DNA of 49,114 nucleotides from Defluviicoccus sp. (GTDB taxonomy: Bacteria; Pseudomonadota; Alphaproteobacteria; MPNO01). The notes beneath the pieces are model-generated. The model was not told the DNA's origin, did not search any database, and saw nothing but the letters and a program-made list of their open reading frames with translations. This document shows, one piece after another, positions 32,664 through 38,146 of the stretch; within the stretch, counting starts at the first letter, position 1, and every line of letters starts with the position of its first letter. The stretch is from the NCBI GenBank assembly GCA_028820505.1, contig JAPPIT010000110.1, forward strand, positions 1 through 49,114, in the 5' to 3' direction. The translations under genes and the position numbers were made by a program.

Positions 32664-33479
32664 ATGGACGGATTGATCGGCTCGGCCCGGCTCTACGAAT
32701 GGTCGCCCGGCCTCGGGACCGCCTGGGGCGATCTGCTGCGCTGGGTGAGCCAGACCGCCGGCGTCGCCTACGAAGTCATCCCGCGCGACGTGCCGATGGG
32801 GCTCGACGAGCTCTGGGCGCGGAGCGACATGGGCTGCGTCGCGATGTGCGGCTACCCTTGGGTGCTGGCGGAGGAACCGCCGCGCCTGCTCGCCGCCCCG
32901 GTGCCGGCGCCGCCGCGCTACGGCGACCGGCCGGTCTATGTCAGCGACTTCGTGGTGCCCGCCGACAGCCCGTGCGAGACCCTGGAGGACACGTTCGGCC
33001 GCCGCTTCGCCTACTCCACCGAGCATTCGCAGTCGGGCTACAACGCGGCGCGCTACCATCTGCTGCGTTACCGGACGGCGGAGCGGCCGACGCTCTTCAG
33101 CGCGGTGCTGGGGCCCTATATGCGCCAGGGCGCGGTGCTCGACGCGCTCGCGGCGGGCGAAGCCGACGTCGCCGCGGTGGACGGTTTCGCGCTCGACCTG
33201 CTGCGCCGCCACGAACCGGAGTCGGCGGGCCGCGTCCGGGTTATCACCACCACCGAAGCCGCGCCCATCCCGCCCATGGTGACCTCGCTCGCCGCGGACG
33301 ACGCGGACCGGACGCGCCTGGTCGATGCGCTGCTCGCCTTCGGCGCGGCGCCGGAAATGGCGGCGACGCGGGACGCGCTGCTGCTCAGCCGGTTCGAGAC
33401 GGTGCCGGGAAAAGCGTTCGACGAACTAATCGACCGCCAGCGCGCGGCGAAGGAAGCGGGCTACGCGAAGATCGCCTGA
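32664..33479 (+). CDS. PhnD/SsuA-like substrate-binding fold protein without signal peptide
   Basis: 271-residue protein with the periplasmic-binding type II fold of phosphonate-binding PhnD. Visible elements are a YPWVLAEE region, FGRRFAYSTEHSQSGYNAARYHLL and AGEADVAAVDGFALDLLRRHEP. It starts directly at the first beta-strand with no signal peptide or lipobox, so it may stay in the cytoplasm or have an unrecognised export route. No phosphonate permease or ATPase lies nearby. It is divergent from the TPR gene, sharing a 96-bp promoter gap. Confidence 0.8.
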   Translation: MDGLIGSARLYEWSPGLGTAWGDLLRWVSQTAGVAYEVIPRDVPMGLDELWARSDMGCVAMCGYPWVLAEEPPRLLAAPVPAPPRYGDRPVYVSDFVVPADSPCETLEDTFGRRFAYSTEHSQSGYNAARYHLLRYRTAERPTLFSAVLGPYMRQGAVLDALAAGEADVAAVDGFALDLLRRHEPESAGRVRVITTTEAAPIPPMVTSLAADDADRTRLVDALLAFGAAPEMAATRDALLLSRFETVPGKAFDELIDRQRAAKEAGYAKIA

Positions 33480-33506
33480 TCACGCTTCGACCGGTTGGCT
33501 GCCGGC

Positions 33507-33728
33507 CAGTCGTCGCCCCAGACCTCGAACGCCACATCGACGACGAAACGGAGCTTCGCCATCTCATCCGCCTCGGTGATCAGGTGGTACAGACCGGATA
33601 GATGGGTGACAGGTTATGGCGGGGTCAGGAGGTGGCCTACGCCGTGGAAGGAGACCTGTCCCATGGACAACCAGCTTGTCGTCGCGCTGGAGGTGGCGGA
33701 GGGGAGTGAAGTCGCCGGCGCACGGCGC
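33507..33728 (-). pseudogene. Decayed MetE-family gene fragment
   Basis: Two segments match the 3' part of the intact MetE-family gene at 37.0-38.1 kb. 33670-33728 matches 37251-37309 at 56 of 59 bases (encoding FTPLRHLQRDDKLVV), and 33507-33583 matches 37026-37102 at roughly 85% (encoding DEMAKLR-VVDVA-EVWGDD). The 86 bp between them are unrelated to the intact gene's 148 bp at that place, and the original stop codon has become TGG. It is a remnant of a former paralog. Confidence 0.8.
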
Positions 33729-33795
33729 CCACAAGCCGCACATCGTCGAGGACGACATCCGCGAGGAGATCCCGGCGGCAGAGTGACGCAGGCTA

Positions 33796-33813
33796 TTGTT
33801 TCACGTGAAACAA
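33796..33813. other. parS: parS-like centromere site (ParB-binding palindrome)
   Basis: The 18-bp perfect palindrome TTGTTTCACGTGAAACAA contains TGTTTCACGTGAAACA (33797-33812), the consensus chromosomal parS sequence recognised by ParB in most bacteria. It lies in a gene-free stretch 246 bp before dctP. The rest of the 33480-34058 gap holds the MetE-family fragment and otherwise nothing I recognise. ParB sites normally cluster near the replication origin. Confidence 0.85.
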
Positions 33814-34058
33814 GGGCCGGCATTGCTGACTTATCCCGCGTGCGAAGAAAGCGCGCCAAGTCGCTGACCGGCGATTTCCACGCCCTGGGGCCGGCGGAGC
33901 GCGACCGGGTCCGCGTCCCCCGGGGACGGGCTGGATATCGCCGCGGCCGGATCGTCCTTTCCCGGCACACACCCTGCGGTTACGATGAACGGGTTAGCGC
34001 GGTAGGTATCGGACGCGTCTCGTCCTTATTCATCGACATGAAACGCAAGGAATGAGAT

Positions 34059-35051
34059 ATGAACATCGTCAAGACGTCACTCGTCGCCGCCGCCGGACTC
34101 GTCCTCGCGGCCAGCGCGAACGCCCAGACTGTTATCAAGATCGGGCACGACCAGCCCGAGAACAGCACCCACCACCAGGCCGTGCTCAAGTGGAAGCAGG
34201 CCGTGGAGACGCGCAGCAAGGGCGCCTACAAGATCGAGGCGTTCCCTGCCATGATCCTCGGCTCGGGCGTGCAGATGGTCGAGCAGCTGCAGGCCGGCGC
34301 GATCCAGGCGGTCGCCGTTCCCTCGGCCTGGATCGCCCCCATCGTGCCCGACGTCCAGGTGCTCGACCTGCCCTTCCTGTTCCCGAGCCGCGAGGTTCTC
34401 TACAAGGTGGTCGACGGCCCGGTGGGCGCCGAGATCCTGAAACCCCTGAACAAGGCGGGCCTGCAGGGCGTCGCGTTCTGGGAGAGCGGCTTCAAGCAGT
34501 TCACCGGCAATTTCCCGATCCGGCAGCCCAAGGACTACGAGGGCCACAAGATCCGCACCATGCCGGCGCCGGTCATCATGGAGCAGTTCAAGGCATTCGG
34601 CGCCTCGCCGGTGGCGATCGACTTCAAGGAGCTCTACAACGCCCTCCAGCAGAAGGTGGTCGACGGCCAGGAGAACCCGATCGCCACCATCGCACTGATG
34701 CGCTTCTTCGAGGTGCAGAAATACCTGACGCTGAGCGACCACGGCTTCATCGCCTACATCGTCGTAATGAACAAGGCGTTCCTCGACGGCCAGCCGGCCG
34801 ACATGCGGAAGATCCTGGTCGACGAGGCGCGCGCCGCGGGTCGCTTCCAGCGCGACATCATCGCCAAGAGCGAGGCAGGCCACCTGGAGACCTTCCGCAA
34901 GGCGGGCGTCGAGATCATCCAGCTTTCGCCCGAGCAGCGGGCGATGTTCCAGAAGGCGTCGGGGCGGGTCTATGACTGGTACGCCGAGAAAAAAGGCGCG
35001 GGGACCCTCAACCTGATCCGCGAGGCGGTCAAGTCCGTCGCCATGAAGTAG
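34059..35051 (+). CDS. dctP: TRAP transporter substrate-binding protein DctP
   Basis: 330-residue periplasmic binding protein with a signal peptide ending ANAQ. Family segments include GHDQPENSTHHQAVLKWKQ, YEGHKIRTMPAPV (with the conserved carboxylate-binding Arg) and VDGQENPIATI. The ligand is an organic acid of unknown identity. ATG 34059 has AAGGA 8 bases upstream. It is the first gene of the dctPQM operon. Confidence 0.94.
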   Translation: MNIVKTSLVAAAGLVLAASANAQTVIKIGHDQPENSTHHQAVLKWKQAVETRSKGAYKIEAFPAMILGSGVQMVEQLQAGAIQAVAVPSAWIAPIVPDVQVLDLPFLFPSREVLYKVVDGPVGAEILKPLNKAGLQGVAFWESGFKQFTGNFPIRQPKDYEGHKIRTMPAPVIMEQFKAFGASPVAIDFKELYNALQQKVVDGQENPIATIALMRFFEVQKYLTLSDHGFIAYIVVMNKAFLDGQPADMRKILVDEARAAGRFQRDIIAKSEAGHLETFRKAGVEIIQLSPEQRAMFQKASGRVYDWYAEKKGAGTLNLIREAVKSVAMK

Positions 35052-37010: not shown

Positions 37011-37024
37011 GGGAGAGAGCCGGG

Positions 37025-38146
37025 TCAGTCGTCGCCCCAGACCTCGCGCGCCACATCCACGACGAGGCGGAGCTTCGCCATTTCGTCCGTCTCGGCGATC
37101 GGGTTGCCCTGGTAGATGCTGGCGAACCCGCATTGGGGGCTCAGCCCGAGCTGGTCCATCGGGACATAGCGCGCGGCCTCGTCGATGCGACGCTTGAGAG
37201 CGTCCTTCGGTTCGAGTTCCGGGTGCTTGGTCGTAATGAGTCCCAGCACCACCAGCTTGTCGTCGCGTTGGAGGTGGCGGAGGGGGGTGAAGTCGCCGGC
37301 GCGCGGCGCATCGTACTCCATGAACAGGGCGTCCACTTCGAGTTCGTTCAGGAGGGCCTCCGCAACCGGCTCGTAGCCGCCCTCCGCCACCCATGCGCCC
37401 CGCACGTTTCCCCGGCACATGTGCAGGCCGATACGTTGTCCGGCGGGACGGTTGCGGATGCACGCGTTGATCATCCGCGCATAGAAGGCCGGCAAGGTCT
37501 CGGGGTCCTCGCCGATGCGGCGGTAGCGGTCGTGGAACTTGGGATCGCACATATGGGCGAAGTTGGTGTCGTCGATCTGGACGAAGTCGCAGCCGGCTTC
37601 CCAGAGCGCGTGAAGCTCGGCGTCGTACACCTCGGCGAGCCCGGCGATCAGCGCGTCCTTGTCCGGGTACAGGTCCTTGTTGATGCCGGCCCAGCCGCCC
37701 CGGGCGTACATGTAGGTGGGCGAGGGAATACAGACCTTGACCGTGCGGTCGGTCAGCGCCCGGGTGAATTTGTAATCCTCTACCGTCAGCCCGCCCTTCG
37801 GGTGACCGAGGGGGCCGGTCACCTCGAGCACCGGCGGAGCGTATTCGATGTCCTCGTCCTCGTAGTGGAAGTGGAACTCGACCCGGCCGGTGAGCTCGAC
37901 GCCTTCGATCCGGGTCAGGATCGGCGTGTGGAACTCGTAGCGGCGGAACTCGCCGTCCGTGACGGTCGGGATTCCGGTCTCTTCCTGGAGCGCCACCGCC
38001 GCGCGGATGCAGCGGTCCTCGATCTCGCGCCGCGCTTCGTCGGTCATCTCTCCGCGTTCGTGCCTCTCCAGAGCCCGCTGGAGTTCGGCAGGGCGCAGGA
38101 GGCTGCCGATATGGTCGGCGCGAAACGGCGGCTTGCCGGGCTGCAT
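37025..38146 (-). CDS. MetE-family protein (cobalamin-independent methionine synthase-like)
   Basis: 373-residue single-domain MetE-like protein. It begins RADHIGSLLRP; zinc-ligand motifs are LHMCRGN and LSPQCGFAS; IDDTNFAHM lies in the active-site barrel. ATG 38146 has GGGAGACG upstream; an in-frame ATG 66 bases earlier is less likely. Family members transfer methyl groups between a methyl donor and a thiol acceptor; the short form's partner is unknown. It is divergent from the alcohol dehydrogenase gene. A decayed paralog lies at 33507-33728. Confidence 0.9.
   Translation of the reverse strand: MQPGKPPFRADHIGSLLRPAELQRALERHERGEMTDEARREIEDRCIRAAVALQEETGIPTVTDGEFRRYEFHTPILTRIEGVELTGRVEFHFHYEDEDIEYAPPVLEVTGPLGHPKGGLTVEDYKFTRALTDRTVKVCIPSPTYMYARGGWAGINKDLYPDKDALIAGLAEVYDAELHALWEAGCDFVQIDDTNFAHMCDPKFHDRYRRIGEDPETLPAFYARMINACIRNRPAGQRIGLHMCRGNVRGAWVAEGGYEPVAEALLNELEVDALFMEYDAPRAGDFTPLRHLQRDDKLVVLGLITTKHPELEPKDALKRRIDEAARYVPMDQLGLSPQCGFASIYQGNPIAETDEMAKLRLVVDVAREVWGDD

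Follow-up and report, generated by a model that had tools for sequence, protein, structure and literature searches.

parS sites are normally grouped next to the replication origin, and copies elsewhere are usually harmful; their restriction to the origin region is attributed to the diversion of ParB and SMC by misplaced copies. Reported numbers reach up to 20 to 23 sites, near oriC, for example in Streptomyces coelicolor and Listeria innocua (PMC7333895). In Caulobacter and Pseudomonas aeruginosa, extra parS sites were tolerated only within about 500 to 650 kb of the origin region, and in Caulobacter a second parS cluster was tolerated up to about 500 kb from the native one and was disfavored at mid-arm (PMC5815017). 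A distribution of functional sites across 1 Mb or more would therefore be unusual and would need an explanation.

Here, we describe a perfect parS site in a stretch of 49,114 nucleotides from a Defluviicoccus sp. (the window) and the repeat family in which it was found. As in the parS clusters of S. coelicolor and L. innocua, the 16-mer is identical, there is a cognate chromosomal ParAB, and the sites are multiple and include a tandem cluster at gidA-parAB. Unlike those clusters, most of the sites here are part of a dispersed repeat that also has a second palindrome; the sites occupy at least 26 contigs, and their copy number is about twice as high. The half-parS sites bound by P. aeruginosa ParB are likewise scattered over the genome, in that species beyond the origin zone, but they are 7-bp halves without a repeat element (PMC10419367), whereas those described here are complete palindromic sites within a conserved composite. 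SGI1 also provides a case of mobile-type DNA bearing parS copies (PMC10954446); it is, however, a large integrative element that mimics the parS of a plasmid ParABS system, in contrast to a noncoding repeat of about 130 to 264 bp with chromosomal parS. Miniature inverted-repeat elements (MITEs) and REP/BIME sequences are similarly short, noncoding, palindromic, intergenic, and multicopy, but the best-conserved parts of the present repeat are two palindromes of the protein-site type, one of them parS. None of the compared systems is a dispersed composite repeat with a full parS, and no report of dispersed parS repeats was found in the open-access literature searched.

Results

A perfect parS site in the window

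The perfect 16-mer TGTTTCACGTGAAACA was located at positions 33797 to 33812 of the window, matching the parS consensus at 16/16 positions, and together with the flanking T and A it forms an 18-bp palindrome at 33796 to 33813. It is the same as the sites at the gidA-parAB locus of this genome. The intergenic stretch that contains it is bounded by a gene for a phosphonate-binding protein (32664 to 33479) and by dctP of a TRAP transporter (34059 to 35051). By chance, about 1e-6 perfect copies of TGTTTCACGTGAAACA would be expected per window and about 1e-4 per 5.49-Mb genome. Shuffled versions of the window gave a mean of 0.04 matches with up to three mismatches, compared with two in the real sequence, of which one was perfect. 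These results bear out the earlier note on this DNA, which had described a perfect parS consensus outside any gene that was very unlikely to occur by chance. It had also remarked on the lack of par and gid genes, and none was present among the window genes examined.

Perfect parS sites are dispersed over the genome

The window is one contig (C14) of a 5.49-Mb genome in 228 contigs (G000). This genome contained 52 perfect copies of TGTTTCACGTGAAACA and 63 sites with at most two mismatches, and the reversed-pattern control gave 0 matches in it. The perfect copies formed 34 loci on 26 contigs with a total length of 1.21 Mb; a single zone holding all of them would be at least 0.99 Mb wide, a minimum that assumes a single replicon and correct binning. 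The gidA-gidB-parA-parB locus was found on contig C112 with one triple and one single parS, and this oriC-type cluster shared its 37-bp unit and spacer with the dispersed element described below. Because perfect parS is spread over so many contigs, a parS site in this genome is uninformative on origin proximity. The earlier note had suggested that the locus lies near oriC or is a ParB loading site on this replicon; the step from the site to the origin was not supported. An ordinary oriC-proximal parS, serving as a ParB loading site on a contig near the origin, would agree with the perfect sequence of the site, but we consider it very improbable in view of the 33 further loci on 25 further contigs, the minimum span, the position of the par locus itself on C112, and the membership of the site in a dispersed repeat family.

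The four other genomes of this genus of sponge-associated alphaproteobacteria, all public metagenome-assembled genomes (MAGs) named "Defluviicoccus sp." (G001, p16x60bins.37; G002, bin129; G003, RHO1_bin_59; G004, jk18x22bins.41), contained 35, 23, 22, and 35 perfect parS sites. The next genus of the family had 2, and the rest of the order had 0 to 4. Across 387 alphaproteobacterial genomes, 0 to 3 perfect sites were mostly found, and only one genome, G227 with 78, exceeded G000.

The parS sites belong to a composite element with a second palindrome

The repeat consists of one to three parS slots at 37-bp spacing, separated by a 21-bp spacer similar to AAGGTCAGCATTGTTGACCTA and followed by the palindrome GTCCCC[C/G]GGGGAC. 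Type A copies have two slots and an extra right module, measure 254 or 264 bp in total, and end near TGTCAACTNTGGTTAACA. Type B copies, to which that of the window belongs, usually have parS in the outer slot only, slots 2 and 3 being degenerate and about 115 bp separating parS from the second palindrome. When the 13-mer was searched independently of parS, 28 copies were found in G000 (5.5 Mb), of which 27 were linked to parS at a few fixed distances; the one parS-less copy seems to be a coding-sequence match that arose by chance. In the five genomes of the genus, a perfect parS lay within 150 bp of the 13-mer in 79 of 91 cases, rising to 84 of 91 when one mismatch was allowed. A module of about 22 bp like GGTCAAGTTATCTATATAAGTCCC was also observed beside several parS copies (common to L012, L025, L030, and L038) and is possibly another repeat or binding site.

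The window contains a decayed type B copy beside a gene remnant

The complete type B composite of the window, on the plus strand at 33797 to 33929 (about 130 bp), has TGTTTCACGTGAAACA as its left end and shows full-length identity of 69 to 72% to elements in G001, G002, and G004. The 21-bp spacer AGGGCCGGCATTGCTGACTTA (33813 to 33833, plus strand), recognized from the alignment of type B copies and by BLAST to other copies, has diverged from the family form AAGGTCAACCTTGTTGACTTA. Slot 2 (TCCCGCGTGCGAAGAA, 33834 to 33849) lies 37 bp from parS and mismatches it at 9 of 16 positions; in none of the type B copies seen was slot 2 a parS. Slot 3, placed at 33871 to 33886 by spacing alone, would have 13 mismatches and is no longer recognizable as parS, and the slot 3 of the copy on G000 contig C45 was a one-mismatch parS. 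The second palindrome GTCCCCCGGGGAC occupies 33915 to 33927, at a center-to-center distance of 116.5 bp from parS. The absence of parS from slots 2 and 3 is a point against regarding the window copy as a working site, while both its parS and GTCCCCCGGGGAC are perfect.

Upstream of the element, a TauD/TfdA dioxygenase gene has left its 3' end on the plus strand at 33719 to 33788, which is 79 to 93% identical to intact TauD genes in G000 (contig C144), G001, G003, and G004, the intact copy being assigned to Pfam PF02668. The stop codon of the remnant is at 33784 to 33786, and parS starts 10 bp on. In G003, a type B element whose parS has one mismatch comes after the intact gene, and the window copy resembles this element; on C144, the intact gene is followed by a two-mismatch site. 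A conserved site upstream of dctP was considered for the window copy and rejected, as the dctP flanks of G001 and G003 contained no parS. Given the TauD-linked elements elsewhere and these element-free dctP flanks, the window copy either traveled together with its TauD neighbor or has outlasted it. It is an old, decayed element adjoining a TauD gene remnant.

This remnant and other repeat fragments in the same stretch fit the earlier description of a gene-poor scar. Positions 33504 to 33585 and 33658 to 33728 were 87 to 92% identical to window positions 37023 to 37104 and 37240 to 37309, and also to sequences in three relatives. Between these repeats, positions 33586 to 33666 resemble an insertion-sequence remnant.

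Conservation is concentrated in the two palindromes

Across 57 orthologous locus pairs, identity was 93.8% in parS (a value lowered by some pairs with a missing slot or imperfect alignment), 90% in the 13-mer, 70% elsewhere within the element, and 63% in the flanks (150 bp on each side). Among 18 paralogous type A copies, conservation was 0.986 and 0.993 in the parS columns, 0.961 in the 13-mer, 0.825 in the spacer, 0.813 in the right module, 0.81 to 0.88 over the parts other than parS and the 13-mer, and about 0.4 in the flanks. The conservation values of both sets are inflated by the fetching of loci via parS or the 13-mer, which left out elements that had lost both. About half of the G000 copies had an element at the orthologous position in another species.

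The possibility was considered that the family is a selfish MITE- or REP-like short repeat that took its parS units from the par locus, with parS a passenger or serving the element (e.g., through retention or easier spread) and not a need of the host. Type A copies are short noncoding dispersed repeats whose homology extends across about 254 to 264 bp and stops abruptly at flanks that are unrelated. The element had no visible open reading frame, its copy number differed between species, and extragenic palindromes in tens of copies are a property of REP/BIME families. There is also a precedent in SGI1, where mobile DNA hijacks ParABS via parS mimics (PMC10954446). In contrast, target-site duplications did not exceed random expectation (mean, 1.8 versus 2.2 bp), and long terminal inverted repeats were absent, the ends having only TGT...ACA in common. 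The retention of about half of the copies at orthologous positions, the limitation of near-invariance within the repeat to parS and the 13-mer, and the joining, within a different short element, of the identical 13-mer to another lineage's own parS version (see below) also speak against such an origin, which we regard as possible but somewhat doubtful. The conservation of parS above its surroundings, together with the matching altered parS of that other lineage, points to selection of the dispersed sites as genuine ParB sites. Part of this conservation could be due to a role of parS in the spreading of the element itself.

ParB and a parallel pairing in another family

The G000 ParB encoded on C112 scored above the TIGR00180 cutoff, with Caulobacter ParB (6t1f) as its best solved relative. 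The ParBs of the genus, including this one, retained 8/8 of the parS-contact residues (contact list from PMC7383237). With the identity of the window site to those at its own parAB locus and its conservation above the surrounding DNA, this supports, at the level of sequence, the earlier designation of the site as a ParB target.

A matching pairing was found in G015, a member of another family of the same order, which had 0 perfect copies of TGTTTCACGTGAAACA and 14 copies of the 13-mer GTCCCCSGGGGAC. Nine of the 14 were positioned 21.5 bp from a perfect TGTTCCACGTGGAACA, and a tenth shared one such TGTTCCACGTGGAACA at 43.5 bp; three more were near variants with three to four mismatches, and one was without any. 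The G015 par locus carried the altered parS TGTTCCACGTGGAACA as two pairs with 37-bp spacing on the contig that encodes ParB, so that TGTTCCACGTGGAACA was present at both the par locus and the dispersed sites. The G015 ParB has Ala at the parS-contact position S172 (PMC7383237), and a tie between this change and the altered parS is suggestive only. A composite with the palindromes 5 to 35 bp apart, a range that excludes type B copies, was absent from 21 of 27 members of the order and from all 384 other alphaproteobacterial genomes sampled.

Noc binding sites (NBS) are of the ATTTCCCGGGAAAT type. The window site is parS and not a nucleoid-occlusion site of this type, and the ParB of this genome has R173, A179, H184, and G201 in place of the Noc-type residues Q173, K179, K184, and R201 (PMC7383237); this comparison concerns the chromosomal ParB and leaves room for a separate Noc paralog. 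Seven more weak ParB-family matches were observed in G000 (L017 to L023), and one of these proteins is a possible candidate for binding the second palindrome.

These additional matches and the operator-like second palindrome would also suit a regulon, in which a transcription regulator (a VirB/KorB-like ParB relative or a Noc-like protein) would use the dispersed sites as operators or terminators and they would not be partition sites. VirB is a ParB relative that is reported to regulate via parS-like sites (PMC10770331). The gene context argues otherwise. Among 30 copies with both neighbors called by a simple gene caller, 14 were between convergent, 12 between tandem, and 4 between divergent genes (convergent excess, P = 0.008 against an assumed 25%), so that copies lay at gene 3' ends and between convergent genes more often than at divergent promoters. 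Moreover, the sites exactly match the par-locus parS and are altered where the par locus is altered, neither site nor ParB is of the Noc type, and an Rfam search gave no match in four element-bearing loci. We therefore regard a regulon as improbable.

Proposed role of the dispersed element

The sequence comparisons establish the repeat family, its geometry, its presence throughout the genus, the almost exclusive linkage of the two palindromes, and the conservation of parS above the surrounding DNA. With a probability of roughly 0.7, we propose that the window site is a decayed copy of a dispersed, noncoding, genus-wide element of parS plus a second palindrome, whose copies are putative ParB loading sites maintained by selection. 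From known ParB biology, every copy may be a loading site at which the chromosomal ParB would load as a CTP-dependent clamp and then slide onto the adjoining DNA, possibly with recruitment of SMC. The chromosome would thus have many distributed ParB entry points beyond the oriC cluster, and a putative partner protein on the second palindrome would shape or limit ParB action. The family may have originated in the gidA-parAB region, through the copying of its 37-bp parS unit and the later dispersal as a short repeat, with parS and the second palindrome afterwards retained through selection.

A bolder proposal is a distributed centromere, in which dozens of composites of parS (with its 37-bp period) and GTCCCCSGGGGAC would act as genomewide entry points for ParB and SMC, a putative partner would render off-origin parS harmless or useful, and G015 would be a second lineage with the pairing built around its own altered parS. 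We consider this extension unlikely on the present sequence comparisons.

A genus with dozens of perfect parS sites over at least about 1 Mb, mostly tied to a second conserved palindrome, offers a natural experiment on the limits of parS placement, and the second palindrome may lead to a partner protein with an effect on ParB loading. For draft genomes, such a genus is also a warning against locating oriC by parS motifs.

parS sites in other genomes

G227 is an unrelated 1.8-Mb alphaproteobacterium in which the 78 perfect parS sites were accompanied by many forms with one or two mismatches (L155 to L169). Its sites were often tandem with A-rich spacers and occurred on all of the long contigs listed; this amplification appears to have arisen independently. 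Three other alphaproteobacteria, G213, G346, and G205, had 18, 18, and 13 perfect sites. Pairs of parS at 37 bp were found in many phyla among GTDB genomes, in a search that was conditioned on this spacing and so supports no claim of a preference for it. The specific spacer of the element was found in this search in the genus only, plus one 3-kb contig, JAJEEA010000103.1 (L067), which bears the element specific to the genus and is filed, probably through misbinning, under a Vicinamibacteria MAG. Of the genus genomes, bin129 was obtained from the sponge Aplysina aerophoba (PMC5649159), and the species of the window may, judging from its genus, also be a sponge symbiont.
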